Shown piece by piece: positions 53 to 18,648 of a DNA stretch of 64,000 bases. The DNA is taken from the NCBI RefSeq assembly GCF_000003855.2, contig NW_003101680.1, forward strand, positions 1,126,976 to 1,190,975, written 5' to 3'. The notes under the pieces are model-generated. The model saw nothing but the letters and a program-made list of their open reading frames with translations. It made no database searches and had not been told where the DNA came from. Source of the DNA: Blastomyces gilchristii SLH14081. Lineage: Eukaryota > Ascomycota > Eurotiomycetes > Onygenales > Ajellomycetaceae. How positions within the stretch are numbered: position 1 is the first letter of the stretch; each line of letters starts with the position of its first letter. A program made the position numbers and the translations under genes.

Positions 53-571
53 ATGCAGCTCCAGAATATTTTGCCGATTGCGGCTCTTCTTGTGACTATA
101 GTCGCTGGAGCACCATCTTCCCCAGGTGAGATCTATATCTCAATGGCCACTGCACCTCCACAGAGGAGTAACAACTTCAAAAACATAGACACCCGTTCGG
201 AAGCTAATTTGCCGGTCCTGAACATGGTAGACAAGCGCTCTGACGCCGATGCTGCCACTATGTACGTGGTTGACAAGCGCTCTGACGCCGATGCTGCCAC
301 CATGTATGTGGTTGACAAGCGCTCTGACGCCGATGCCGCCACTATGTATGTGGTCGACAAGCGCTCTGATGCCGATGCTGCCACTATGTACGTGGTTGAC
401 AAGCGTTCTGACGCCGATGCTGCCACCATGTATGTGGTTGACAAGCGCTCCGACGCCGATGCTGCCACCATGTATGTGGTTGACAAGCGCTCCGACGCCG
501 ATGCTGCCACCATGTATGTGGTTGACAAGCGCTCCGACGCCGATGCTGCCACCATGTACGTGGTTGACTAG
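53..571 (+). CDS. Secreted Kex2-processed repeat precursor, candidate dikaritin-type RiPP precursor
   Basis: The 172-residue protein begins with a signal peptide (about residues 1-20, ending near VAGA). After a short leader comes a tandem array of a 14-residue unit, SDADAATMYVVDKR. There are seven full units plus a last one lacking KR (nt 239-568), preceded by one degenerate unit of the same length (residues 49-62) ending VDKR. Each unit ends with a Lys-Arg Kex2 site, so processing in the Golgi would release up to eight identical peptides. This layout (signal peptide, Kex2-spaced repeats, Tyr in each core) is that of UstA-like fungal RiPP precursors, where a short Tyr-containing core is cyclised. 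Here the core would centre on Tyr-Val-Val-Asp (inference). A UstY-family gene lies 3.2 kb away. The ATG has a good context (ACAAAATG). Alternative: a Kex2-processed repeat protein without cyclisation. Confidence 0.85.
   Translation: MQLQNILPIAALLVTIVAGAPSSPGEIYISMATAPPQRSNNFKNIDTRSEANLPVLNMVDKRSDADAATMYVVDKRSDADAATMYVVDKRSDADAATMYVVDKRSDADAATMYVVDKRSDADAATMYVVDKRSDADAATMYVVDKRSDADAATMYVVDKRSDADAATMYVVD
239..568 (+). repeat. Tandem 42-bp coding repeat, 7.9 copies
   Basis: Seven 42-bp units plus a 36-bp final unit encode the precursor's core peptides. Differences between copies are almost all synonymous single-base changes (tct/tcc, gct/gcc, act/acc, tac/tat, gtt/gtc). The amino-acid sequence is therefore fully uniform while the DNA varies slightly, as expected under concerted evolution plus purifying selection. 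Confidence 0.95.
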
Positions 572-1309
572 GTAAGTGCAATCAAAAGTGCAAATCTTCG
601 TCCAGTATGTCTAATTATCGAAAGATCCTGAAGAAGGGCAATCACTGCCGTATCGCCGCCATCCCTTCGGGGACGGTATCAGCTCTCCGGAGAGAAGAAT
701 TTGGGTAGGGGAATTGGAGGAAGAGGCACGGGACCGATCAACAGCGATATGGCAGCCCTCTTTGTTTCTTTTCTTTACATAAGAATCGCAGGATGTTATT
801 TCTTTCCGGGGTTTTCAAATAAGTGTTGCAGCTATGGGATATTATATTGTTGAGTTGTTGATATAGTTTTGGGATAGTTAGAGGAGACTGGAAGTTTTCG
901 GACCTAAATCACTCATTCATTATCAAGTTCTATTCGGTTTTTCATTGAAAACGCTTTATGTAGAACAAATGAATTCAACAACGCCTCACGTTAGTAGCAT
1001 GCACTGCGCGCATCACATCACGCTGGCTAGACGCACTCGGGCAATAATCAACAGTTTGTTAGCACTAGTTCAAATGCCATCCTTAGCATGCATATTAAGA
1101 TAAGCAGTCAAATACAATAGAAGTGGCTAAAAACTCATAGAAAAAATGAGGATAATAAGATATCATCAGTACGGAGTACGGAGTACAGAGTAACTAAAAG
1201 AGACGAGCGAAGAGGAGGTTGAAATCCGCCAACATATTAAATTATGCTGACTAATACGCGATCCTTGAACCCCCCTTGAATGGAACTCAAGATCGAATTA
1301 TTCTACACA
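572..1309. other. Intergenic, 3' ends of two convergent genes
   Basis: No gene is supported. The precursor stop codon is followed directly by GTAAGT, a perfect splice donor, so a 3'-UTR intron is possible (acceptor-like CAG near 602-604 or later). Two overlapping copies of the 9-mer TACGGAGTA lie at 1170-1185. Confidence 0.6.
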
Positions 1310-3285
1310 TTACCAGAACCACCACCGGATATACCACGGCCGAGTCTCTCTCGATTTTCTCTTCAACGCTATCTCCCTGAACTTTGGAAACAATGGTGTA
1401 CCCCATCCGGAGGCTGCATCCCACCCTTGCAGAGCTGGAAAGCCTGTTGTATTGCAGCCTCCATTTGTACCTTGAGTGACATCCTGAAATGCTTTGAATC
1501 CCTCCATGTATAGCCATGGGTTTAAAAATCCCAGTGGTGGCTTTTTCTCCGCTGCCAATGCATCATTGACCAAAGCTACAATGGCAGCGAATGTTGGAGC
1601 AGAAGCTGATGTGCCATCAATGAGTTTTGTCTCTCCGTTCCAAATCGTCACAAAGCGATACCCCTGCGCGGAAACATCGGGGATTGCACGTCCATATGGA
1701 TTGAACATGCCAGAATGGAGGTTGTTAATCTTTGAAAGATACCGAGCAATGCTATTGGGGTTATTGGCTTGGTAATCCGGACGCGGAAAGTAATTACTGA
1801 AGCCTCCGCCTGATGAGAATCCATTACGGCTGTTCACTGCAACAACTTCTGGCTGGATGCCTTTTGTAGCACCGACAGATGTGACCCACGGACAGGAATC
1901 TGGAAAGCTTACAAGGAACTCGGGAGTAGTGAGGCCGTCATTCGAATAACAGTGACCCGGATGACCAACACCATAATCTCCTGAACCCATTATAACAGAT
2001 ACCCCGCGTGCACCCAGCTGGGCAAAACCGTTGCACACTCGTCGAGCATATGAAATTGGAACAGTATGTTCGATGTCCCCATACGAAGTGGAAACCACGC
2101 TGGGAAGTTCCGAATCAGGCTGGTCAAGAATCCAGTTCAGCCATACCAAGAACGGCTCGTTAGTGTTGGTGGGAGTGAATGAGTCCGGGATAAACGGTGG
2201 CTCGGATTTACCAACTGAATATATAGTAAGAGGGATTGGGTGGGCAATGCCGAGCATAACTTCAGCGTCAAGATTGCCTTCCCTCCCAGCGCCGCGGGCG
2301 TATTGCTCTGGCGTTACAAGACTCTGCTGGTTGATCCCACCATTTATGCTGATGTCTTCGAAGCTCTCTGCGCCAGAAACAGCGTCTGGTCTATATATTT
2401 TGAGAAAATGAGAAACATCTGATCTGTTGTTGAACTCTCCCAAATAATTGACCAGCGCCATTTTTGTCCCTCGTTGAGAGTCCGCCCTGTAGTACAGGGT
2501 GCCATACAGCGTACGAAGGCAAAGGGACGTTACAGCGCTGGCGTTACATGCTTGTTGAGGGGTCAAATCCGGTGGGATATTATTCAAGTCGACATCCGTT
2601 CCGATACCCAATGCGGCGTCCTCTGCTTGTTGGTTAATGTTCGTGATCTCGTGGTCTTCATTCTGACGTGCTTTGACTTGGCCTGGGATGCGCATTAAGG
2701 AGGTTGTTGGTTGAATGGTGTCGATCGCGTCGTGTAGGTATTGGGGTACTGACCACTCCATTGCCCGAGCGGCTGTTTGATGCCCGTATCTGTATATATG
2801 ATATTTGGTATCAAGAAGGCGCTCCGCTTCCGCAATAGATACAGTCACCGCAAGCCAGTCTCCGGCCGCGTTAAAATTGTGACGACCAGTCGAAATACCA
2901 TGCTCTTCAAGCCACGCTTGCGTACGGTCTACGGCATCTCGATGCGGTCGAAGTAGCCTGGCTACTTCAAATCTAGTCAGAAACTGACCGTATCTCTTGT
3001 GGCGCGGGTTGGAAACTAGAGAAATGTTAGCAAATCTATACCAGAAAAGTTAAAGATACCAGACGCCTGACCTTCTTGAAGCCTATTTTCCAGCTCAGCT
3101 AAACGACCTTGCACAAGACCTATTTGAAGCGAGATATTCATAGACGGAGGTGCTGTGCCTTCGCGAATCCATTTGGACGGTGCTGGATGAGATTCCTTCA
3201 AAGAATAGGAAGCGGGACTGGTTGTTGAAGAGTTTACTGCCGAAATTCCCACCCCAAAGATCAAATATAGCCAACGTAAGTGCAT
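1310..3285 (-). CDS. Sedolisin-family (S53) serine-carboxyl peptidase 1, secreted
   Basis: Two exons, 3285-3072 and 3015-1310, separated by a 56-nt intron, give 639 residues. The ATG at 3285 starts a signal peptide with a hydrophobic stretch (LYLIFGVG). A propeptide with the S53 hallmark 'SNPRHKRYGQFL' follows. The catalytic set is complete: Glu317 and Asp321 (in GREGNLDAE), oxyanion Asp418 (SGDYGVG) and Ser541 (DGTSASAP). The C-terminal calcium-site region (DVTQGTNGGC ... GWDAASGWGTP) is also present. S53 enzymes are acid tripeptidyl- or endopeptidases, secreted or vacuolar. The gene is divergent from the UstY gene across a 490-bp shared promoter and convergent with the RiPP precursor, so a role in trimming Kex2-released peptides is plausible (inference). 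It is paralogous to the S53 gene at 11950-14027. Confidence 0.92.
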
Positions 3286-3775
3286 TTTGTTTAGGTAGAA
3301 GTATGGCCATCCACCCCGATTCCTTCCCAGCTGCCAGCCGATAAAGGAATGCAGCCACCATTTCTTTCCAGTCTTGTTCAAACTCCGTGTCCCATGCTAA
3401 GAGCAAGAAGCTCAAAATGGACCTGCTGCCAGGACAGTAAACCTGGTTCAATGTCACTGTCGTATAATGTCTTTGTGGCATGATTTCTGTGATGACATTG
3501 CAGCTGTTGATGACAGGGCTGAGGTCATGACCGAGGGTCATCAACAAGGTGACAAAATATCTCTATTCCTACACTCTTGGCAAGATTGTCACCCTTACTA
3601 ATGAATTCGCAGTGGTATCCATCTCTCTGTCCGAACCTCTGAAAATTTGCTTTGTTGAAAGTGATCTTTTGATTATCAGCATCCCCAATTATGCTCACTA
3701 TTCCACCTCTCCTACACATCCTCTGAACAAGGGGGAGTCTCCTGAACATTGACATAGCTTTCATTTTGTCTTATT
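3286..3775. promoter_or_regulatory. Divergent promoter between S53 peptidase 1 and UstY gene
   Basis: A 490-bp gap lies between the start codons of two head-to-head genes, so it probably drives both. No specific operator could be identified by eye. Confidence 0.5.
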
Positions 3776-5025
3776 ATGATGGCGTTTTTTGCCAGAGGTC
3801 GACTGTCTCAGTGGTACAAAAGTAGAAACCAATACGCTTACAAAGTCCCTGAAACTCCTGGTTCTTCTCCGAGAAGCCCATCAGAAGAAAAGGGATCAGA
3901 AGATGGACTTCTCGAAGAAATACAGTATCATACGTTTGCTGCACGACGATCTGTGTGGAAAAATGGTCGCTTCCTCATTATTTTTCACATCTTGCTCTTT
4001 ACTCTGTATATTGCGAGTTTGATGGCCGTGTGGGAAAGGAATAATACAAATCAGTTCCGAGCAGCTGGAATGCCCTTTTGTAAGTGTCTGCTCCGCTTCT
4101 CCTCTTACTAAACTTATCGACTTCCACCTTCTTCCTTATCAAATTGGTTAAAGGGCTAATTGTTCGGAAGCCCCGGCAGCGAAGATGGTAGAATGGAGAG
4201 ACACTAGATTTAGCCTGGAGGATCGGATCACGGAAAAAGGGTCTTTCTCGGGGAAACCGAGCGCGGAATTAGACAAAGCGTGGCATGATTTGCTTGATGG
4301 TAAGGCCCCTATACTTGGCGAGAATACTTATTTCAAGGTGAAATCATATAAAGGCATCAGTAACTGACTATCTTACGTAGATGAAAACATTATGGTGGAA
4401 CCGGAATACATCAAGCACTATGATCGAGAGGATATCACGGTCCGCATCCCTGAGGGTGATGGCTACATCGGCACCCTAAATGTGTATCATGAACTCCACT
4501 GCCTGAAACGTATCCACCAGTATATGTACCCTGACTACTACTTCGCGGGTTTGTCTGCAAGCGATATTGAAATGAACAGGCTCCATAATGGTAAGTTCTC
4601 CTGATCGCATAGTTCACTTTTGCGCACTGCAGATTCAAACGTTTTTTTTTTTTTTTTTTTTTTTTTTGTTTTCTCAAATATTCTTTAGAACATTGTATCG
4701 ACTTCCTCCGCCAATCTGCCATGTGCCATGGCGATATTGGATTGATCACGTTCGAATGGCGTGACAGCAGCCGCATCCCGGTTGCCAATGCTACATCCCA
4801 TCAATGCGTTAATTGGCAGAAGTTGGATCAGTGGACGAAAGCTAGATCTGTTGATATGATGAAGCCGGGTTGGCTCGTTCATCCTACTCTTGGTAAGCTA
4901 AATTGGATATTTGTAGCCTTTTTAAAGATCCGGAGTACCAAGTACTAATACTCACATTCTTTCTAGGTGTGGCATATCCAACCGGTGAAGGTGACAGAAT
5001 TGGTGCACTTAGTGAGCATAATTAA
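3776..5025 (+). CDS. UstYa/DUF3328-family oxidase, candidate RiPP macrocyclase
   Basis: Five exons (3776-4079, 4171-4299, 4381-4590, 4689-4892, 4967-5025) join in frame to 301 residues. The second exon's acceptor is GAAG, chosen because it yields the family's S-P-A motif; a CAG seven bases further would be in another frame only if used alone with a different donor. One transmembrane helix is at about 65-85. The lumenal domain carries both family motifs: HELHC (181-185) and a second HC (216-217) followed by Cys227. UstY proteins catalyse oxidative macrocyclisation or side-chain oxidation of Kex2-released cores in dikaritin pathways (ustiloxin, phomopsin, asperipin, cyclochlorotine). Intron 3 contains a long T-tract. 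ATG 3776 is followed at once by a second ATG (3779); either may be used. Confidence 0.9.
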
Positions 5026-6290
5026 CTGATCAACTACAAGGGAGAAAGCGAAGCAAAACCCTGGCAAATATGTCTTACTTTGGCGAGCCCTGTGGTGAAA
5101 TCCACATATTTCTTCTGTTGCTTAAACGTTGATATAGCTATGTTCCCTAAGTATTCACATGAAGAGCGACGGTAACGACACCTTTTTCTAGTATTTCTCA
5201 ATAGGTTGACACAAGAGTTCTTTCAGCACGCCAAGTATTGACAGCCGCTTTGAAGAAAGCAATAGAGGTACCAATTAAAAGCTCTTAACCTAAATCCGAT
5301 ACTAATTGACTATCGTCGTCCTATTTATACGGTGCACCCACCAAAGCCTTCTGAGCATTTTGTCATGGGTTTCAGTGCCACAGTTTAGAACCACTTGAGT
5401 CCATTCATTCTGCTTCTGTAGTCTAAGAACTGCCACTAAGATTCCCCTTGCACGATGGGGGATATCAGGTTGAGCGCCATCAGGTGCTTGTCCATTCTCA
5501 TACAAATCTGCGTTGCAATATCTCCTTTGGGAGCAGCGATGATGGCTCAACCCAAGTCTTAACCGGAATAAAAAATAAAAAATATATAAAATATACTCTC
5601 CCCAATTCCGGATTTTTTTTTTTTTTTTTCGCAGAGTCCACGGACAAGCCTTTTTTCACAACACGGTATCGAGACTTTTTGCCGGAACGGCATGAGTTGC
5701 GTAAAATACATTTCTATCGCCGGAAATCTGAGCCACACCAAGACGGAACCGCCCCTACTCCCAATCATGGCTGAATCTCCCAGACAGGCACATATATCCC
5801 TGAGAGCCTTTAGGAAAGACACGATCAAGAATGGGTCAAATATTTCTTCAATGAAATGAAGGATTGACTGCAGCGGAGTCTAGACTCAAGTTGCAGTGCA
5901 GTCGTTTGAGTGATGGTACATGCTGAGAAGTCAGGGGTAGAGGACTAATAGATACAGTACTTAGTACTCCGAATAGACGGGAAGTAGTGATTGTGATTAT
6001 TTCTAGGGTCTCAGGCTTGTGACTATATGTCATCGCTCAATCGATGGCACTTTCGGCTACCAATCTTCCGGTTGTCATGTAACCATTTTCCATTCAGGTT
6101 CCACGTTTAACAGTAAACGGCTGGAAATGGGGCATAACTTGAACACAATATTATATCTGAGCTCATGGCACTTATGGCTCATGCTAGGCATATTTCTTTG
6201 CTTGGAGATTATCCTCATCCTTTTCGTTTCGCTATATCTTCCCGCTCCCCCGTAGCTTAATGGCTTCAGGCATCCTCCAGCACCACTTAA
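5026..6290. other. Intergenic region, no gene supported
   Basis: 1.26 kb between the UstY gene and the 3' end of the MFS gene. Only short, low-quality open frames are present. A T-tract is near 5612-5630. I see no repeat or RNA gene. Confidence 0.5.
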
Positions 6291-8008
6291 CTACGGCATT
6301 GGCTTGCCCTTTGCGCGTAATTTCGCACCAAACTTCCACAGAATAAACGGGGACGGAATTCCCAGGCCCAGAAAAATGAAAGCCAATACACTATGACCCC
6401 AGCCGTACCCCAGCCGAGCGAAAAGCGCTGGCGCGAACAATGGAAACGCAAATGCAAAAATGCTTCGTAGAAACTGGCTGGCCGCTGAAGCCGATGCCAC
6501 ATAACCCCGATATGCCTCCATGACGTACTGCTGTTGTGAGTGTGTACTCATGATAACCCCGAAGTTGAACATTGCAATAGCGACGTCGACTACAATCCAT
6601 TTCTGCTTCGTTTCTGCCGTCCACCCATACCAGAACAAGCTGATAGGGATGACAATAGAGCCGGGAATCATCAGGGGAATCCGGTACTCCGGCGCCGTTT
6701 CGCCCCCTGCTCGTTTTTTCAGATATGCCCACAGGCGATCAGTGAGAGCTGCCCCAAGTTGGGCACCAATAGTTGAGCCGATGACGAGAGCAATATAATG
6801 CAACCCGGAGGCAGAAACAGACTGGTGGTATTGGGTTATCCAGATAGAGGCAAAGCTGGTCAGGACAAAGTAAAGAGTGCCAAAATTGTAAGCAAGGAAA
6901 AGGCTCACAAGTTGGATGATTGGCTGGGTGGCCAACATCCATACTGGCCTTGCCACACTACGCTTCAGTTTCTGGGTGAGCGGTTGGTTGTGGATGTCCC
7001 ATCGGGTATGATATTCTCTCCCAGTTTCCTTGCGTAATTTCATCGCCTTTCGGTGAAGAAGGAGCTGCTCATAACATTCCGGAAAAATCCAGAACGCAGC
7101 AACTGTGAGGATTGCATCAAATATGGATAAAACCCAGAACAACCATCGCCAACCGACTGAGTTAGTGATCACGCCCCCCAAAATTGGACCTATGGCGGGT
7201 CCAAGAAGAGGGATAAATGTTGCTATGGCAAAGGACCTTCCCCGCTCCTCTGGTCTCCAAGTATCACCTAAAACCGGATTCGTGACCTTGCAACATTATA
7301 AGCAGTGAAGTAGTCCAAAAGGAAGATGGGGAATTAGTTTACTCACAGCAAACTCTGCACTCGCTCCCAATCCTGCCAGAAGCCTTGCGGACAACATCAA
7401 ACCCTGGGAGTTTGCAAATCCACAGACACCGTTCCATAGGACATACCATGTTGAACAAAGGATCCATACCTTGCGGCGGCCAAATATTTCTGTCATAGGA
7501 GCTAAGACCATGGGGCCAAAGGCAAATGCCAGCACAAAAATGGATAGACACATGTTCGTTGTGCCAGGGCTGGTATTGAGATCCTTTGCGATGGCATCTA
7601 GGGCCGGAGCGAGCATCGCACCACTCATCAGTGTAACAAGACCCCCAAGGGACGTTAATAAAGCAACCGCCCATTTCCTGAACCGGCTCCAATTGAGTGG
7701 ATTTTTCGGATCATCAGGGCCATCCCAGTCTACCTAATACAGGCAGCTCAGATTAGCAATGTAGTGAGGAGATATTCGATCGAATCTGTCAATGGGCAGC
7801 TCCAGATACAAAGCATAGGCGCGGAAATCGAAAAAATAAAAAATAAAAAAATAAAGAAAAGAAAACCAGTGGCTATTACCAGCAGTTCATCTTGGTCCCA
7901 TTGGGAATTTGTCTGATTCTCCTCGGCCTCTTTATCTTCACTTCTAGACTCCTGTACTGCAGTCACCGATTTCTCGACGTCGCCCTTCGGGGGATTTGAG
8001 GGGGCCAT
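6291..8008 (-). CDS. MFS drug:H+ antiporter (DHA1-type), candidate cluster exporter
   Basis: Three exons, 8008-7880, 7733-7347 and 7286-6291, give 503 residues. The N-terminal tail is hydrophilic and acidic, followed by VDWDGPDDPKNPLNW, the signature that precedes helix 1 in fungal multidrug MFS proteins. Twelve hydrophobic segments follow in two groups of six, with the motif RPEERGRSFA before a mid-protein helix and a long cytosolic loop (KAMKLRKETGRE). The ATG at 8008 is preferred over the upstream ATG at 8149 because the added stretch is lysine-rich low-complexity sequence encoded by an A/T tract. In this cluster the protein would most simply export the mature peptide or protect the producer (inference); the sequence does not identify the substrate. 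Confidence 0.88.
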
Positions 8009-9312
8009 TTTTTTTAATTTTTTTAATTTTTTTTTTTTCGAAAGAACTTGGTTGGGTGAGGTGAGGTGAGCTGTTAACAGGCGGAAAAGTTTGTCATATA
8101 TCATCTGGTTGATAAAGGCAGCAACATTCGCAGCATTCATGTTCAACAATGAGCATCATAGTAGCCCGCTGCAGAGCGCTGAACAAATTGTGTAACCGGC
8201 ATGGACTACTGACGTTTTGTAAGCATTGTGTCTGCTGGCTCCCGCTTATAGTTAATTCCTGTAATTCAGTGGGTTGTTGACCTAGAAATTGCTGATATTA
8301 TAAACTTCCTGAATCGCACACCACAACGCAGTTAATATTCATTTCAAACACCTTGGGCTGCGTGGTTGCAATGTACTGTACAGGCTCATGCAGAAGTAAG
8401 CTTTGCTCATTGAGAGATTGGTTCCAAGGTTCAGCTCTACAAGGCTGAAAATTCGGCGCTTATTCTTTAGCAGAGTAGTTAGTAGCGTAAGTTAGACTTT
8501 CTGACTGGATGCCACGAACTATATAATATGCCTAGCTTTAGAATCAGCTGAAGAATCAACAAGATGAATGAGATACTACTAAGATTCTCGTTGCAATAAT
8601 TGTGGCTTCCAACTTATTAGCCTATGATTTGCCCTGTATATGACTAAATTCCACTCCGCTCGCCCCCGATTTATAATATGTAGTTGTCCAAACACCAGAT
8701 AAATATGTAGCTGAATGATCAGTGGTTGTACAGTTGGGGGTCGTGTTACAATAAGTGCACTAATCGAATACGAGCTTTCAAATCATTTCTATATTTGACA
8801 AACATGATGAATGCTTTTGAAACCAGGTCCATATGAATTACCAAGCCCTTCATGGATTAGAAGCTGGTCGTTCCAGACAGGACCTACAGAAACGAGCTGC
8901 TAGGAGCAACATTGAAAATACTTTCCGTTCCGAAGGCTGAAAACCTGCTGGATATTATCTTCTTCATTATCGTCTTGACGTTCAACTTGGCCCCATCAGG
9001 GTAGTATTGCTTTGGGCTGAGATCCCACCATATATCAGCTATCCATCGACCGTACCTAGTTTGCGCGGGTCTAAAATATGGGGGTTTTGCATATGTCCAA
9101 CACTCGGCTCGCATCGATAGGGATGTGCGGTGTAGTTATTCGATTTCCTGAGTCCAAAGGCTGTGGTTGGCTGCCTGGCTTCGAGAGGCCTTCCATGCCA
9201 TTTATAAAAGTTTGCGCAATTAGAATGAAGGTAAGAATAAAAAAACGTAGTCGGGAGCCAGCCCTGGAGATATTATACGGTAACCAAGAATGGCAAGGGG
9301 CAAAGTATAATC
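8009..9312. other. Intergenic region between MFS and bZIP genes
   Basis: 1.3 kb head-to-head spacer, presumably holding both promoters. It contains A/T-rich low-complexity sequence at 8010-8040. No gene, repeat or RNA recognised. Confidence 0.5.
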
Positions 9313-11056
9313 ATGTTCGAAAATTCTAAACCAAAGAGCAAAAGCGAGCTGCCGCCGCTAATGCTACCTATTGAACGCAGTCAAAAAGAAATTCGAAGAG
9401 AAAAGAATAGACTGGCTCAACGACGGCATCGAGAGGGTATTGTTCTCCCTTTTTCCTCTTTTCAAAACGGTCGAGAATGGTTCTGCGATGTATAGTATAT
9501 AGGTCTCGAGCAACTAATAAAATCAGCAGCAAAGCGAAAATGCGCAAGCAAGACACACACTCATGATAATATTCATCCAAACCAAACAGAAACGAGCGCT
9601 TCGTCACGGGAGCGACAACAACCACAGAGTCCGGCTCACAATGAGGTCGACCCAATGAAGTAAGTAGCCTCGGGTCCGAGAGGGGGAATTTAAATTGTCA
9701 TCCAAAGGAGCCCAAAAAGGGGAATAATGGTGCTGACGAATGGTTCATAGGCTTGATTTCTTTGAAGAAATAGAAAGCATTTCAGATAGACTAGGGCCCG
9801 AACTCATGGAGAAAGAAATGGTCGACGACCTAATCAACATTGATTCGTCATGGGAGCCGAGGTTCTTCCAAGAGACCTCGATGCAAAGCCGTGTATCTCA
9901 TACTACTTCAGAAACTGCAAAAATTCCTGATCCCCTACTAGATACCATGGGAGATGACCACGCAGAGCCAGCGATGCGAGATATCCATCGGCGGAGGCGC
10001 AACAGCGGGTGTTCTTCCACTTTTGGACTAGCTATGCTGAACACGCAGCCCAACCCACCACTGATTCCAGTGCACTCTTTAGACAAAGGGCAGCCATCAT
10101 TGTATTCTGATCGATGTCACTCCCAGCAACCTGGCTTCCAGCTAGCAGCAGCAGACACTTCGCCGCTACCCGATTTGAAGGGTGGGATCTTCCAAAGCGA
10201 AGACACAGAAACTCTTGAGGAACATCAATTCCCCACAGAAATCTATCGCTCAGATGATCTCGATAAATCCCTTCAATCCTTTTCACAAGAGATGATGGCA
10301 AGGGTTGGAGAGGCTTCGGGTATAAGAAGGAATAGTTGCAGAAATAAACGAAGGAGAACATCCTATGAAACTAGCGAACGGCGACTGGAGAGGATACTCT
10401 CGGTCATCGAAGAAGAGGGTTATGAGTCCCTGGATGATGTGGTTGCGGAATACTACGTAGGGCAGTTTCCAAAAGACTCCCTGCTTGCTTCTGAACAGTT
10501 CCATTCCCGGACTCGACGGCTCGGCAGGTTCTTGCACCAAGTACACAGAAGTTCCCGGGCTTGGAGTAAGAGAGAAGCAGCTGGCTATCACGACGTAGTT
10601 ACACGAGCTGCAGAAGAATTATTTCAGGAGGAAGTGCGGAGTCGAGCAAATGTAATCATGGAAGTGCCAATTCATCCGCATCGTCGTGCCTCTCCATCCC
10701 CTTCGTCGATAAATAATAGACTTTGGATGCCTCCTCACAAAGAGCCTGATATTCCGGGGTCGACAGCCAACCCCTCGCGCAATGACACGAGAGCATCCGC
10801 CCATACAGTTGTCCGAGACCTGCTGTTCGAGAGTGGCCTAACTCCAGTCCTCATGCAGGACTTGTCTCGACTTCAGAGTACGGTAGGTGGACAGCTTCAT
10901 GGCCCACTCTCCCGGAGTCCTGATGAACACGAATTAATTAAACTCTAGGTACCTGAAACTTTCACTCTCCTGACGGAACTAGCTAGAGCGAGCGGGCTTC
11001 GCCGGCCAGATCAGTCTATTTCTGTTTGTTTATTCTTACAGATGTTGGGGCTATAG
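9313..11056 (+). CDS. bZIP-type transcription factor lacking a clear leucine zipper
   Basis: Four exons are proposed: 9313-9436, 9527-9659, 9751-10882, 10949-11056 (498 residues). Residues 28-41 (RREKNRLAQRRHRE) match the bZIP basic region with its N-x-x-A-Q-R core. The next exon has no heptad leucines, as in the zipperless bZIP-like regulators often found in fungal clusters. The rest is acidic or low-complexity, plus a conserved-looking C-terminal block (residues about 220-300). Exon 2 begins at a CAGCAG tandem acceptor (9524-9529), either half of which keeps frame. The last intron (10883-10948, 66 nt) is inferred from GTAGGT/CTCTAG signals; if retained, the protein ends at the TAG at 10946-10948 instead. 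Likely the cluster's regulator (inference from position). Confidence 0.75.
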
Positions 11057-11949
11057 AGCTCTCACCAAGGCAGCTCAATAAGAGCCAGCTCTTTTTGCGT
11101 ATGACTGCCCCGTTGCAGTCCATTTTCGTTGATTTGGATGGATTTGAGCGTTTGTACGGAGTATTATGTGTGGAAGGTGGAGAGCTTGCTTCATTGAAGT
11201 ATATGTGCTCAACCAAAGCTGAATGTATCTGTTGAATGTCTTTGACTGTCTTGGTCATTTGCTCTTTGCTATAAGTAATGCAGTTCATTATAAGAGGGTT
11301 TGGCAGATATTCCATCAAAATTGCACTTGAGAGGCCAGTGTTGTGTTGAAAGACATTCAGATGAGGCAATGGCAGTTGGGCGCAAGAGTAATATGTATTC
11401 ATAAAACTGTGGCATATAGCCCCTGTCACATATGCCAGATTGCTTGAGGCTGTAATAAGCCCTGATTTCACAGTGAATGTGATTCAAGTCATGGACCCTG
11501 TTGTTGACATACCCAGCTTCTTCATTGTTGTGAAACTAGACAACATCAGGAGCTGGTGTGTTTGAGATGTAGCTGCTGATAACCAAGATACATACAACTT
11601 TCAGAGCGCGCGGCATGCCATCATAGTTCACATGGAATACTGACAATGCCTCTGACGATTTTCAGCTCTCTGGTAAACTTGATCTTTGTAGGATTGATCT
11701 CAATCCTAAAATTGTCGTCAAATCCGCTCGCCTTGTAGACGAATGTGAGATACTCGCGGTTTAGGCGTCATGGCCGGAATTAAGTTGTTCCCGACTCGGC
11801 GTCAAGCTGCCACATGTCATGTGACTGAAGGGAAAAGGAAAAAGGTCATCTTAGGTTCAACTTTAATTGGACGATCCAAAGCTGGCCTCTAGTCTAGTCA
11901 CGTGATGCTTCCTGCAACATAAACTCTCGCCAACCTCCTCCCTACCATG
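11057..11949. other. Intergenic region, no gene supported
   Basis: About 0.9 kb between the 3' ends of the bZIP and second S53 genes. It has one TACGGAGTA 9-mer at 11155-11163 and no credible exon in any frame. Confidence 0.5.
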
Positions 11950-14027
11950 CTATGCTGTATGTACTCCTTGCATGTACCACGGCTCATCTGCGCGAAACTT
12001 TGCTTTTATCGCCAAATCTTTCAACTTCGGGAACCACTATAATATGTTAACTTTGCTTAAGAGAAACATTCCCTCAGGATTCAATTCACTCACAGGAGTA
12101 CCTAGTCCTGTTGCTGGATCCCATCCAGCCAAAGCAGGGAATCCACTAGTGTTGCACCCTCTATTAGATCCCCAGGTGATGTCAGTAAATGCATCACGGG
12201 CTTCAGAATAGAGCCAAGGATTCAAGAAGCCTAGCGGTGGGTGCCCATTGTCAAGCAAGGCATCATTGACCAGTGCGATTATGGCAGAAACTGTTGGAGC
12301 TGAAGCACTTGTTCCGTCCTGGAGATGCGCTTGACCATTCCAAAGGACAGAGAAGTGATAACCTAGTGCGGCAATATCAGGATATCCGCGTCCCCTCCGA
12401 TTGAAAAGGCCTTGATGTTCATTTCCAAGAGCCTCCAGGTAATTTTCAACCGCCATGGCCTGATATCGTGGCCGTTCGAAAAGTTCACTGAAGCCACCGC
12501 CGCTGGCAAAATCTCCGCGACCATCGAACCCTACGATCTCGGAACCCACTAGTCGCGTAGCTCCTACGCTAGTAACATAGGGGCAGCTGGACGGGAAAGA
12601 GGGCGCAAAACGCCTTTGCTTGCCTCTGCCGTTATCCATTACGCACCGCTCACTTTTTCCGACCCCCCAGTCCCCACTAGCAACAAGGATCGAGACGCCG
12701 CGGGCTCCCAGTTTGGCGAACTCCCTACAGACTCTCCTTGCGTACTCTGGGGGGACGGATCGCTCGGTATCAGCATATGAGATAGAGATAACGTGAGGTA
12801 ATGTCTCTTTAGTTTGCATGTACTGGAGCCACGCCAGGTATGGTTCATTGGTGTTTTCTTGATGGTCCTCGACAGGTCGAAATGGGGGCTTCGAGCCTAC
12901 ATTATATGTCGTCATCGGAACCGGCCAACTGAGACCAAGGATAGTCTGTGCGTCCAAAGCACCTTCGAACCCTTTATTAGCATTATTCTGCTCTGGAGTA
13001 TTGGGTGTTTGTTGATCATCTCCATCTGCTATGATCTCCGTCGTGAATTGGTACGCTGCATTCGCTTTGGCGGCGGATGGATTATAACGGTTGAGGAATA
13101 GCTCGATGTCGGACCTATTGTTGACTTCGCCCAGGAAATTCACTAATGCGATACTATTTTTAGCGAACGCCTTCTGCGGATAACCCCATGTGCCGTAAAG
13201 CACGCTTAGGCATACTATTGAGATCGCTAGTCGATTGCATGCTTCCTTGACAGTGGGCGCCTGGGATAGCTCATGGGCTAGAGGGATGCCGAGATGGCCG
13301 CGCTCTAAGACATCCTCTTCCACCAGTTCCTCATAAGTTGGTATACGATGTTCTCTTTCCCAATCCGGCGGGGGTAGGCCCCCATATCTAGATTGCCCGC
13401 GTGGTATGAAAAACGAGTTGGTGGGTTCGACAACATCGATGTGATCGACTAGGCCGGCAGGTATTGACCATGTCAAGGATCGTATCATGGTGAATCCATT
13501 CTCGTTTTGATACTCCGCATAATTTGCCCTGAACAACCGTTCAACAACCCCGATCGGTGCATTAAATGAGATCAAGTCTTCAGAGGCGGAAACCGTCAAA
13601 TTTGACGGTAAGGAACTAGCTTCTTGGAGCCAGGCAGTTACCAGATTAGAGGACGTCGGCGCCACTCTAACTAACCGATTGACCTCAGTTGAAGAAAGGT
13701 ACTTGCCATATCGGGGGTGGGATGGATCAGAGACTACGTTTATTTTAACACATACTAGCAAAATCGATGGATAACAACACAAAACATACTTTCCATTAGA
13801 TGCTGCTCCAATGTTTCCCATCCATGCTGCTTGAGCCCAATGCTTACTCTAATGACTCGATCCCCTGAGACTGACGATTTTCGCGACCAGCCTGTCGGCA
13901 AGTCCACCGAGCTCTTCAGCACATATCGTGTCTCTAAGAGTAGTGATCCTATACCTAAATTGAAAAGAAAAAAAGAAAAGACAATTCTTTGAAGAACTCT
14001 AGGAATCATGATCATTCGATTTGTCAA
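11950..14027 (-). CDS. Sedolisin-family (S53) serine-carboxyl peptidase 2, secreted
   Basis: Three exons, 14027-13790, 13733-12094 and 12036-11950, give 654 residues. The last 87-nt exon restores the family C-terminus (GTP-WFPKL...PWY), which also occurs in the first S53 gene. A signal anchor or peptide lies at about 8-30. The propeptide motif SDPSHPRYGKYL is present. Catalytic residues are Glu336/Asp340 (GFEGALDAQ), Asp434 (SGDWGVG) and Ser555 (DGTSASAP), so the enzyme should be active. It resembles the S53 gene at 1310-3285 along its whole length, especially near the C-terminus (PPLGFLNPWLY). Starts at 14015 or 14009 are also possible. Its partner is probably the bZIP-controlled cluster; which bond it cuts cannot be told from sequence. 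Confidence 0.9.
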
Positions 14028-14462
14028 CTCTCAGACAGAGATATCAAAAATATAAACTCAATTTCATACATCATAACTACTTTCCTTAATTTAGCCCTGC
14101 CCATTATATCAAAACCGTTCCATGATGCTGACATTGAATGGTCCGCATGTCATGCTCGATGCGCTAGTGCCGTAGTTGCTGACACTGCATATCACTGTGC
14201 TCACCAATAATAGTTAAGTTAGTTAACGGTTTCATCGATAGTTACCAAACTAAAGACAGCCACGCCTTGCCATTCCGGGCAAAAAATTACAGTACTCTTA
14301 CTTGGCCTCGAACAGGTGTAACATTCCTAGTTGGCGATGTCTTGACTTTGCAGCTTTCTTCTTGGGCCATGGGATACCTAGATATGACTCCATTTACCTC
14401 CCGGACACGTTCGCGCCTCTCTCTCTTTCATGACTTCGCCAGCGGGATACTTCCTAGCTAAA
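14028..14462. promoter_or_regulatory. Divergent promoter between S53 peptidase 2 and DOMON-b561 gene
   Basis: 435-bp head-to-head spacer. No defined motif recognised; co-regulation of the two genes is possible. Confidence 0.4.
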
Positions 14463-15884
14463 ATGGCCATCCTTGGTAGATATCTTCTCGTATCGATTTA
14501 CGCCCTCATTTTGTTTATCACCACCTTTACTGTCTCAGAGCCTGTTCAATATTGTCGATTCGGCCACAATGAACATGGGCCATCTAGCGTTGACTTTTGC
14601 ATGGGCGTTGCGATGCATTACAATAGATCTTCGCTCCATCACGACATGTACCTAACGATGGAAATTCCTCGAACGTCTGCACTGGGATGGACTGCCATAG
14701 GTACTGGATCGTCCATGAGAGGATCATTAATGTTTATCATCTACGGGATCCCTTCCGACCAGCATGGCCCCATCGTCAGTATCCGCACGGTGGATGGCCA
14801 CACACAGCCGCAGTTGGTTTCTCAGAACCAGATGGGCGGAGCGGATCTTCGCGTGCTCCAAGCATCGTGGATGCAGGGTAGCCGTGCGATGACTACTGCG
14901 AAAATCGCCCTCGTGTGCTATTCATGTGAAAAATGGCCAGGTGCTCCGATCTCCGCTCAAGCCTCTTCACAGCCGTGGATTTGGGCGTGGAACGATAAAC
15001 AAGATATCCCGGTATACTCATACGATGTCCATCTGGATATGCATAAACACCATGCTGGAAACGGTGGTTGGGGAAATTTCTACGTGGATATGGCTCGATC
15101 AGCTAGCACTGCCAAAACCCCTCCATCATTGCCCCCGATTAGAACAGGGATGCCCCGACTGGGGACGTCGGACAGCCCTTTAAGCGCAGGCGGTATGATA
15201 TCGTCGATCAGAGACAACCCTATATCTTCTATACACGGTTTTGTGATGTTTGTTGCGTTCTTCATCTTGTTCCCCCTTGGTACAATAGCAATGCGATCTG
15301 GGTCCTCTAAGGCTTTCAAATATCACTGGTTCATCCAGCTGGTAGCCTCTCTGTTCGCTTGGTCCGGTATAATCATCGGACTCTTGATGAACCACCACAT
15401 AAACACCGTTCACCAATGGATCGGTGTATCTCTAGGTTCGTACCTCTTCATCCAGGGCCTGCTGGGCTGGCAGCATCATCGGGTCTTCGTTCGCATTCGC
15501 CGTCGGCACTGGGCCTCGTACTCACACATATGGCTTGGACGACTCACGCTAATCCTGGGCTGGACCAACATTATTACTGGCATGCTGTTGTCCGGAGCCA
15601 GCGTTTCTTGGTCCGCTTCTATGGCATGCATAATTGCCATAAACGCTTTGGTTCTGTCTTTCTGGGTGTGGAAGGCTTCTAGACGTCAGTTGCGTGCCAA
15701 GGTGGCCACAGCCGATCAGACTACCTCCCAAGCGGTGTGGCCTGAGCCCAAACAAGGGGACTACTTTGCCCTAGGCACAATTGATGAGGATGACGACACA
15801 GATTCGGAGGAGGAGAGAGAGAATAATAAGAAAAAGAAAACCCATACACAATATGACCCTGCGCCCGGGCCTTCTGGCCAATGA
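14463..15884 (+). CDS. DOMON (CDH-type cytochrome) - cytochrome b561 membrane oxidoreductase
   Basis: Single exon, 473 residues from the ATG at 14463 (an in-frame ATG at 14430 adds 11 residues before the signal sequence). A signal peptide (LLVSIYALILFITTF) leads to a DOMON domain (about residues 30-215) like the heme-binding cytochrome domain of cellobiose dehydrogenase, with a Met-containing CMGVAMHY segment. Five hydrophobic helices form a cytochrome b561-type domain (about 257-405) with candidate heme histidines in SIHGFV, KYHWF, HQWIGV and YSHIWLGR. The cytosolic tail is acidic then lysine-rich. Such proteins pass electrons across membranes. It may close the RiPP cluster or simply neighbour it. 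Confidence 0.85.
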   Translation: MAILGRYLLVSIYALILFITTFTVSEPVQYCRFGHNEHGPSSVDFCMGVAMHYNRSSLHHDMYLTMEIPRTSALGWTAIGTGSSMRGSLMFIIYGIPSDQHGPIVSIRTVDGHTQPQLVSQNQMGGADLRVLQASWMQGSRAMTTAKIALVCYSCEKWPGAPISAQASSQPWIWAWNDKQDIPVYSYDVHLDMHKHHAGNGGWGNFYVDMARSASTAKTPPSLPPIRTGMPRLGTSDSPLSAGGMISSIRDNPISSIHGFVMFVAFFILFPLGTIAMRSGSSKAFKYHWFIQLVASLFAWSGIIIGLLMNHHINTVHQWIGVSLGSYLFIQGLLGWQHHRVFVRIRRRHWASYSHIWLGRLTLILGWTNIITGMLLSGASVSWSASMACIIAINALVLSFWVWKASRRQLRAKVATADQTTSQAVWPEPKQGDYFALGTIDEDDDTDSEEERENNKKKKTHTQYDPAPGPSGQ

Positions 15885-16920: not shown

Positions 16921-18648
16921 TCAGACCCACTCACCCGCCCTCTCATCAGCCATTGCAGCCGGATCAGTAGGCCCAACAATCACGATTCGATCCTTCAATG
17001 CCATCTTCCGCATGTCTGGACTTGATAGCCCTAATCCCAACCGTTCCCTCGTCATTGCCATACTCCTTCGAAACAAGCTTCCGCCCCGCAGACTCCGTCG
17101 ACTCTCCCGTTCTTTCTCCTGCTGACCTTGCTGTTGCTGCTCCTGCTCCAGCTGTTGTTTATCCAGTTGCTGTTGTTGTTCATCCTCCTGTTCCTTTGTA
17201 GGCGGGGGCGGCGGAGGCGGGGGAAGAGGTAGGAAATACCTCATCGGCGAAGGGGATGGAGGTCGAGGAGGTCGTAAGGGTCTAACAGGCGTGCTGTTAT
17301 TTCGGACATGAAAGGCTTTGGAAAGAAATGTTTTCATACGGCGGGGGAGAAGGGTTAAGGGGCTCGAGAAAAATTGGGATTGGCCTTGTGATTGCGATTG
17401 AGGCTGGGAGTAACGGTGGCTTTGCTGATAGTATTGCCGTAGGGGTATGGGGGACGGCGGCAATGGTGGGAGCTGAGGAGAAGGACGTTTGACTTTTGGT
17501 TTCATCATCTTACGCTTGAACATGGTACTGGGCCTGCGGTTACTTTTCGTTTTCCACGCTTTCGGCCCGTAGCGCTGGTAGTCGGAGATCGGGACAGCGA
17601 GTTGCTTGGTTCTCCGGCGATCAAATGTTGAGACTGTTGGGGTATTATTGGGAGTGGGGGTAATATTCAAGTTGTGGTCCGATACGCTGCTGTCAGAGGA
17701 GAAAGAGTATAGTTCTGTACGATTTCCGTATTGGGGTTGAACTTCGATTTCTGGCACTGATGTGATGGTGGCGCCTCGTGCAACGTTGGTAGCGGGAAGC
17801 TGGCCGGTAGAAGACAGTCCCATTTTCCGCGGGTGTTCTATGTAAATGTCAGAGGCAGCTTCCTCTGAGTACCGTCGAGGCCGCACAGGCTCGCTAAGGA
17901 CTTCGCAGCGGCACATCTCTGACCCACTGTCATCCACCACTGCCAACGACGACTCACGGCTTTCGTCCCTGCCACACCGATGATAGTCTAAAGCGGGAAA
18001 TAGTAGCATTGGGCCGACACTCTCAATAGTTGTATTTGAAATAGGATGGACTAGATCGCCAGTCGTGGAACCACCGTGCAGTGCGTGAGTCGAGTTGGAG
18101 CGAGACTTCGATTTCAGACCCCACGACCACCCGTAATGTGGGTGGTATGGGCCAGTGGGTGCCCTAAGTGACGCGCGAGTGGCCGCCTCGAGAAGTAGGT
18201 TCGGCGCTGACTGATACCCACAGGGCTGGAGAGATAACGACTTCTTCGGTATCCGTAGATGTACATCCTCATCCACCGGAGGTTCACGGGTCGCCTTGTG
18301 GTAGTGCTCTGACGAACCCAGGCTGTGAGCTCTTGATGGCGCACGCGGAGGCGGCTCAGGCATCAAGGTATTCCGAGGACAGGGGGGTAAATGGCTCTCA
18401 ATCACCCCGGCGGCTTCATCGTCAGGGCTGTAGACACTAGAAGTGGGGCGTGGAAGGTCTGGTAAGGGTTTATCGAACTTCCAACTCCTGCAGCTTGGAT
18501 TGCTGGGCGAGAACCCTCGTAGAGGAATGACTTTCTCCAAACCCTCCAGCGACTTCGAGGTGAGGAGCGGAGGTGTATGTCTATGAATTCCTCTGGACGT
18601 CATCTGTCCTGTGTCGCGAGTGTTAGAGAGACTGGGAGAGGGCAGCAT
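16921..18648 (-). CDS. Proline-rich, low-complexity protein of unknown function
   Basis: Single exon of 575 residues. I do not recognise a domain. The protein is basic and disordered, with Pro-rich stretches, a proline run near residue 485, and a Gln/Glu-rich segment (about 495-525). A well-formed C-terminal block contains MALKDRIVIVGPTDPAAMA, which looks conserved rather than disordered. There is no signal peptide or membrane helix. It is followed downstream by the DOMON gene in convergent orientation. Possibly a nuclear or cytoskeletal adaptor; this is a guess. Confidence 0.7.
   Translation of the reverse strand: MLPSPSLSNTRDTGQMTSRGIHRHTPPLLTSKSLEGLEKVIPLRGFSPSNPSCRSWKFDKPLPDLPRPTSSVYSPDDEAAGVIESHLPPCPRNTLMPEPPPRAPSRAHSLGSSEHYHKATREPPVDEDVHLRIPKKSLSLQPCGYQSAPNLLLEAATRASLRAPTGPYHPHYGWSWGLKSKSRSNSTHALHGGSTTGDLVHPISNTTIESVGPMLLFPALDYHRCGRDESRESSLAVVDDSGSEMCRCEVLSEPVRPRRYSEEAASDIYIEHPRKMGLSSTGQLPATNVARGATITSVPEIEVQPQYGNRTELYSFSSDSSVSDHNLNITPTPNNTPTVSTFDRRRTKQLAVPISDYQRYGPKAWKTKSNRRPSTMFKRKMMKPKVKRPSPQLPPLPPSPIPLRQYYQQSHRYSQPQSQSQGQSQFFSSPLTLLPRRMKTFLSKAFHVRNNSTPVRPLRPPRPPSPSPMRYFLPLPPPPPPPPTKEQEDEQQQQLDKQQLEQEQQQQGQQEKERESRRSLRGGSLFRRSMAMTRERLGLGLSSPDMRKMALKDRIVIVGPTDPAAMADERAGEWV

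Follow-up and report, generated by a model that had tools for sequence, protein, structure and literature searches.

The precursor gene and its neighbours

We analyzed a 64,000-nucleotide stretch of contig NW_003101680.1 (C3) of Blastomyces gilchristii SLH14081, C3:1126976-1190975 (hereafter the window; its base 1 is C3:1126976), in an assembly of 74.8 Mb and 75 contigs. At the left end of the window lies a candidate locus for a ribosomally synthesized and post-translationally modified peptide (RiPP), with a repeat precursor gene, a gene of the UstYa (DUF3328) family, UstY1, and two genes for S53 peptidases (sedolisins), sed1 and sed2. The cluster is cut by the window edge: a second UstYa gene, UstY2, and a gene for an OPT transporter fall outside it. 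UstY2 begins 0.7 kb beyond the upstream edge of the window and is divergent from the precursor gene, and the OPT gene lies to the left of UstY2, in convergent orientation. The two UstYa genes flank the precursor on opposite sides, with sed1 located between the precursor and UstY1. All gene models are open, and their introns are of the GT-AG type (Table 1).

The precursor consists of the leader MQLQNILPIAALLVTIVAGA, a short stretch that holds a single divergent unit, SEANLPVLNMVDKR, and eight copies of the dodecapeptide SDADAATMYVVD. The 42-nt unit was detected by Tandem Repeats Finder with a score of 590. The eight copies vary at six sites of the 36-nt unit and at a seventh site, in the Arg codon of KR; all seven (7/7) are third positions, and none of them alters an amino acid. 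The precursor is thus a coding repeat that has been maintained. A second precursor copy of the SDADAATMYVVD-type family was not found in the genome.

An intron near positions 126-163 of the precursor was considered and rejected: its 38 nt would break the frame, and the B. dermatitidis record P0094, which is 99% identical across 73% of the precursor, reads through it. The deposited P0094 model contains four full units and is apparently spliced from the fifth at ...AT/GTAYGT (the slash marks the splice), and its differing C-terminus is also encoded in the window past the precursor stop (region 53-710). Every repeat in the window holds GTATGT or GTACGT, which stems from the Met-Tyr-Val codons and is a good 5' splice signal, and TAG/GTAAGT is present after the precursor stop. 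Strains or splice forms might differ in repeat number; alternatively, the P0094 model is in error.

A sequence-only reading of this DNA had listed a Kex2-spaced repeat precursor, a UstYa/DUF3328 protein with both motifs, two complete S53 peptidases, an MFS transporter, a bZIP-like regulator and a DOMON-b561 protein. The first four stand: the precursor is intact, with eight KR sites spaced exactly 14 residues apart; UstY1 matches PF11807 with 202.6 bits (cut-off 25) and contains HELHC and HNEHC; both sedolisins are complete, with Pro-kuma_activ scores of 130.1 and 131.4 bits; and the transporter matches MFS_1 with 160.2 bits. The bZIP assignment did not hold. Although the frame is open and includes a basic stretch, NRLAQRRHR, the bZIP models gave no match at E values up to 1 with the whole protein or up to 10 with its first 152 amino acids, and nothing in Pfam scored above its cut-off. 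The last protein kept part of its description: CDH-cyt passes its cut-off (47.8 versus 27 bits), whereas cytochrome b561 is just below (21.8 versus 23) and DOMON far below (12.4 versus 32.7).

UstY2 matches PF11807 with 184.6 bits and likewise has two HxxHC motifs. Profile searches of the whole genome, in which all match counts are lower bounds, gave seven PF11807 matches at four loci (UstY1, UstY2, C13:1631747 and C17:1449228), four S53 matches, two of which are in this locus, two CDH-cyt matches, and OPT matches at four loci. Half of the UstYa loci (two of four) and half of the S53 loci (two of four) detected by these searches are present within about 16 kb. With uniform placement over 74.8 Mb, two of four UstYa loci would fall no more than 4 kb from the precursor with a probability of about 7e-8. 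The prodomain and catalytic stretches of sed1 and sed2 are shared with the S53 enzymes TPP1 and kumamolisin. In sed1, the stretches for the catalytic Glu/Asp, Asp and Ser, at what we take to be the positions of the S53 family, align with TPP1 (a PDB match), and in sed2 the stretches, read by eye, are EGALD, SGD and GTSASAP.

To the left of the OPT gene are frames resembling alpha-mannosidase and DEAD-box helicase, read by eye without a Pfam test. On the right flank, the longest frames were scanned up to 47.6 kb of the window: the frame at 16921-18642 is followed by matches to NUDIX, LETM1, DUF2838, SMC hinge, CDC20 and M18. The genes outside the locus look like housekeeping genes, and because such frames border it on the left and right, the locus measures at most about 21 kb. 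The frame at 16921-18642 (minus strand), which adjoins the right edge of the cluster, is open and encodes a Pro/Ser/Gln-rich protein of 573 amino acids that has no Pfam match.

Table 1. Positions of the features of the candidate locus, in window coordinates unless C3 is given.
Feature	Position	Strand	Description
Precursor	53..571	+	ATG to TAG, 172 aa; hydrophobic signal-like leader followed by eight KR-spaced SDADAATMYVVD units
Repeat array inside precursor	239..568	+	eight units of 12-14 residues, 42-nt period
Sedolisin 1 (sed1), S53	1310..3285	-	exons 3285-3060, 3015-1310; 643 aa
UstY1, UstYa family	3776..5025	+	exons 3776-4079, 4171-4299, 4381-4590, 4689-4892, 4967-5025; 301 aa
MFS transporter	6291..8008	-	exons 8008-7880, 7733-7347, 7286-6291; 503 aa; membership by position only
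Putative regulator with basic stretch	9313..10948	+	3 exons, 484 aa; membership by position only
Sedolisin 2 (sed2), S53	12037..14009	-	exons 14009-13790, 13733-12037; 638 aa
CDH-cyt (heme-domain-like) and b561-like membrane protein	14463..15884	+	473 aa; right edge, membership by position only
UstY2, second UstYa gene	C3:1124959-1126279	-	outside window, upstream
OPT transporter	C3:1121801-1124606	+	outside window, upstream; 236 bits

Homologues and the linkage of UstYa and sedolisin genes

The search for precursor homologues gave 8 matches at E <= 10. The unit of the Histoplasma homologue is SDADAATRYVVDKR (core RYVVD), that of Akanthomyces muscarius is SDADAATAYKADKR (core AYKAD), and those of a metagenome homologue are SPADADAATAYATNKR and ADADAATSYATEADKR (core SYATEAD); matches from Penicillium and metagenomes are weaker and fragment-like (SDADATTNYVVDKR or similar). 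SDADAAT or near variants of it are kept in the homologues, as is the KR spacing, and the core differs between them. We infer that SDADAAT is the recognition part and that the Tyr-containing end is the core.

The homologue search for UstY1 gave 93 matches at E <= 0.001. The closest are those of Histoplasma ohiense (84%), Paracoccidioides lutzii (PAAG_00679, 80%) and Onygenales sp. PD_40 (68%), and others come from Aplosporella, Cordyceps, Claviceps, Xylariaceae, Colletotrichum and Usnea, among others. Of the 75 tree rows longer than 240 amino acids, 66 have two HxxHC motifs and the other 9 have one, a count that takes in the two proteins from the window together with any trimmed fusions of such a size. 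The closest tree row to UstY2 is Aspergillus tanneri EYZ11_009511 (67% across 201 columns, SH 100). The B. dermatitidis ER-3 peptidase P0102 is 99% identical along the whole of sed1. That the locus is decayed or silent and was kept by chance is very unlikely: its gene models are open with GT-AG introns, its repeat copies differ only at synonymous positions, and the homologues of UstY1 and sed1 in Histoplasma, Paracoccidioides, Emergomyces and Emmonsia are 78-85% identical.

Near C13:1629757-1630719 (L014:7257-8219, minus strand) is a second frame like a Kex2-repeat precursor, with a secreted-looking leader and the units QDSFGYSDYDDNPEISKR / QDDFGYSSYDDQPEREKR / KFPSGDDRPVIVKR in a 150-nt repeat; the UstYa match at C13:1631747 is about 1 kb away. 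This appears to be another UstY RiPP locus, separate from the present one and rich in Tyr. At the fourth UstYa locus, C17:1449228-1449762, Tandem Repeats Finder detected only short simple arrays in 20 kb, and none like a Kex2 repeat.

A FastTree phylogeny of sedolisins was calculated for 124 rows: the best 120 of 1500 matches, sed1, sed2 and open frames from the two other S53 genes of the genome. The gene sed1 falls in a clade of 69 rows (SH 99); the two other genomic S53 genes fall outside this clade and are placed apart from both sed1 and sed2. The gene sed2 falls in a clade of 8 rows (SH 90), grouped with two UstY-linked sedolisins, and its exact placement is unsure because of its long branch. 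A sedolisin was scored as UstY-linked when its longest contig was equal in size to the contig of a UstY match, or when both domains were present in the deposited protein. Among these best 120 of 1500 matches, 18 of 68 sedolisins in the sed1 clade are UstY-linked versus 0 of the 45 sister-clade sedolisins (Fisher, p 4e-5), and on contigs of 10 kb-1 Mb the numbers are 13 of 43 versus 0 of 30 (p 5e-4), with p values that serve as a guide only. On the tree, the UstY-linked label requires 13 changes, compared with a mean of 20.7 after shuffling.

Locus tags show that such genes are neighbours in five cases, which were noticed among the matches listed, with no systematic count. In A. tanneri, EYZ11_009511 (UstY2 type), 9514 (sed1 clade) and 9516 (UstY1 type) have the same order as the genes here. 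TPAR_07844, 07845 and 07846 of Tolypocladium paradoxum are UstY, sedolisin and UstY; MMC11_006639/006640 of Xylographa and V494_01756/01757 of Pseudogymnoascus are each UstY and sedolisin; and in Akanthomyces, LMH87_005650 is UstY and 005652 is the precursor. Moreover, a sed1-type and a sed2-type gene are found together on four contigs, those of Xylariaceae sp. FL0662B, Xylaria bambusicola, Lachnellula arida and Hypomontagnella monticulosa, the first two of which also carry UstY matches. Judged by these matches, sedolisins linked to UstY genes, and the two-sedolisin pair, also occur in other Ascomycota. The deposited proteins P0149 (Aphanocladium album, 943 aa) and P0152 (Cordyceps javanica, 841 aa) combine an S53 prodomain with a UstYa domain; they may be annotation fusions of neighbouring genes, or real fusions.

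These neighbourhoods also bear on how many of the genes belong together. The RiPP core, consisting of the precursor, the two UstY genes and sed1, may be real while some or all of sed2 and the regulator-like, MFS, OPT and CDH-cyt/b561 genes are unrelated to it. To this narrower form of the proposed reading we give somewhat less than an even chance. It would fit the locus tags, which show only the precursor, sed1-type and UstY genes as neighbours, and the three other OPT loci in the genome. However, sed2 groups, if on a long branch, with sedolisins from contigs that carry UstY and sed1-type genes, and the pair is present on four contigs; and because housekeeping-like genes flank the locus, the accessory genes would at least lie inside the same island.

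Relation to described UstY systems

The survey of Kex2-repeat proteins by Umemura 2020 (PMC7329392; statements from it refer to the part of its text that was available) includes KEP type G-6 (#13), a Tyr-containing type with 49 members in 19 genera, among them Blastomyces, Histoplasma, Paracoccidioides, Emergomyces and Emmonsia. DUF3328 genes are located within 15 genes of 46 of the 49 members (PMC7329392). By eye, 17 of the 19 genera are represented among our UstY, precursor or sedolisin matches, with Rutstroemia matched only through a sister-clade sedolisin; Monosporascus and Ophiocordyceps were not seen. To judge by its genera, the Tyr residue and the association with DUF3328, the precursor family is very probably G-6, in which case the association of precursor and UstY is not new. 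The sequence-only reading had proposed a dikaritin-type cluster with a new gene combination. The precursor-UstY-S53 locus without a tyrosinase is upheld, and the case for a RiPP locus is stronger than that reading saw, because UstY2 and the OPT gene lie just outside the window; the novelty of the combination is not, since it recurs elsewhere and its precursor-DUF3328 part was very probably already listed. The words "S53", "peptidase", "Pro-kuma" and "kumamolisin" are absent from the main text of the survey, where "kuma" and "protease" refer to authors and to Kex2/STE13 (PMC7329392). Searches of the open-licence PMC literature that paired UstY, DUF3328, ustiloxin or phomopsin with S53, sedolisin or tripeptidyl yielded no relevant paper. 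By these searches, what appears new at the level of sequence is the recurrent two-sedolisin accessory set beside a UstY RiPP-type locus. A UstY-type product from Blastomyces or Histoplasma was not found reported in the same literature; the mentions of dikaritins and Histoplasma in the available part of PMC11856446 are general only.

The locus shares with the ustiloxin and phomopsin systems a leader with Kex2-spaced repeats, two or more DUF3328 genes, and a core, YVVD, that resembles the YVIG, YAIG and YVIP cores given for this type in the survey (PMC7329392). A description of the class that was likewise available in part (PMC12048977) restates the original dikaritin criteria of Ding together with a later view in which DUF3328 defines the class. 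Of the features on the original list, the locus has a precursor with an N-terminal leader and repeated core/recognition motifs, multiple DUF3328 genes with two HXXHC motifs (of which UstY2 is outside the window), and transporter or peptidase genes, namely MFS, OPT and two S53 genes; for the tyrosinase and the methyltransferase, which are also on that list (PMC12048977), the profiles searched, PF00264 and PF13649, have no match in it. The predicted locus is thus a dikaritin locus by the DUF3328 definition, and departs from the original list, as restated there, at two features.

The precursor could instead give rise to a linear secreted peptide, similar to a pheromone or hormone, with UstY acting elsewhere or modifying it only slightly. 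Such an origin is suggested by the large number of Kex2-repeat proteins without accompanying DUF3328 in the survey, 6120 of 7878 (PMC7329392), and by the lack of a tyrosinase in the locus. We nevertheless regard it as unlikely. The precursor lies between two UstYa genes, and other genera likewise have UstY and sedolisin genes as neighbours. In addition, annotated pheromones almost never occur with DUF3328 in the survey, and the repeat here contains no Trp, whereas mating-factor types are noted there for closely spaced W (PMC7329392).

From the gene content, we consider it probable that these genes form an intact biosynthetic locus for a dikaritin-type peptide, one that is ribosomal in origin, modified by UstY and made without a tyrosinase. 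Several observations weigh against this. In ustiloxin and phomopsin, cyclisation requires a tyrosinase (PMC7329392, available part), and no PF00264 match is present in the locus. The nearest of at least 12 such matches in the genome, at C3:1084570-1085468, is about 42 kb upstream of the precursor and was rejected as a cluster member; housekeeping-like frames, read by eye, intervene. Neither is Methyltransf_25 (PF13649), the one methyltransferase model searched in the genome, where it has at least 26 matches, found between the OPT and b561-like genes, and the genome profile search gave no P450 match inside the locus. Ustiloxin and phomopsin loci differ in these three families and in the S53 pair present here; in addition, Val replaces their Ile here, and the Akanthomyces core is not Tyr-Val-Val. 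Asperipin-2a, for which the available description lists one gene of ustY type together with a transporter and a reductase and does not mention a tyrosinase (PMC12048977), is similar in its precursor, UstY and transporter. It differs in having one UstY gene instead of two and two Tyr linkages where the unit here has one Tyr; no reductase is among the gene models here, for which no family search was made.

The linkage evidence has weaknesses of its own. On contigs of 10-100 kb, where 8 of 32 sedolisins in the sed1 clade are UstY-linked versus 0 of 13 (p 0.08), the difference is not significant; the rows of the tree are related and not phylogenetically independent; a shared contig was judged by equal size, and large contigs alone do not prove neighbourhood; and the UstY-linked label is clustered on the tree and does not form one clade. 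Finally, no UstYa relative was matched in the PDB by sequence and the fold comparison gave no match worth naming, so the chemistry ascribed to UstY1 and UstY2 rests on family membership.

A proposed pathway and its meaning

In the proposed pathway, the precursor would enter the secretory pathway, where Kex2 and then a Kex1-type carboxypeptidase would release the dodecapeptide SDADAATMYVVD up to eight times. UstY1 and UstY2 may then form an oxidative bond between the side chain of Tyr and a residue close to it, the simplest site being the beta carbon of the second Val in Tyr-Val-Val, by analogy with the Tyr-Ile of ustiloxin (YVIG) and phomopsin (YVIP). The recognition segment would be stripped off by sed1, sed2 or both, which are homologues of tripeptidyl peptidases, and the MFS or OPT protein would carry the peptide across a membrane. 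Enzymes of the S53 family act as tripeptidyl peptidases, and the dodecapeptide consists of four times three residues, with TMYVVD starting exactly after two tripeptides. Two cuts, removing SDA and DAA, would leave TMYVVD, with a predicted [M+H]+ of 725.3175 if cross-linked (minus 2 H). The [M+H]+ values predicted for cross-linked repeat-derived peptides are 1255.5147 (the dodecapeptide minus 2 H), 982.4186, 725.3175 and 493.2293, with +15.9949 variants, and those for the corresponding linear forms are 1257.5303, 984.4343, 727.3331 and 495.2449. Roles for the b561-like and regulator genes in this pathway would be guesses.

More tentatively, and with the odds rather against it, the locus may represent a widespread, undescribed sub-class of UstY RiPPs, in which a dedicated pair of sedolisins removes SDADAAT by tripeptides and halts at the ring made by UstY. 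The cross-link would then set the N-terminus of the product, giving TM[YVV]D here and TR[YVV]D in Histoplasma.

The recurrent peptidase pair, beside a recognition segment that is conserved across genera, would make the trimming step of UstY peptides directly testable, and specific peptide masses to seek in Blastomyces and Histoplasma follow from the model. A second, simpler UstY system without a tyrosinase would aid enzymology, because no relative of the UstYa family matched a solved structure. Several systemic dimorphic pathogens, and likewise insect- and plant-associated fungi, retain related genes; if the sub-class is real, they would have in common a type of secreted cyclic peptide that nobody has yet sought.

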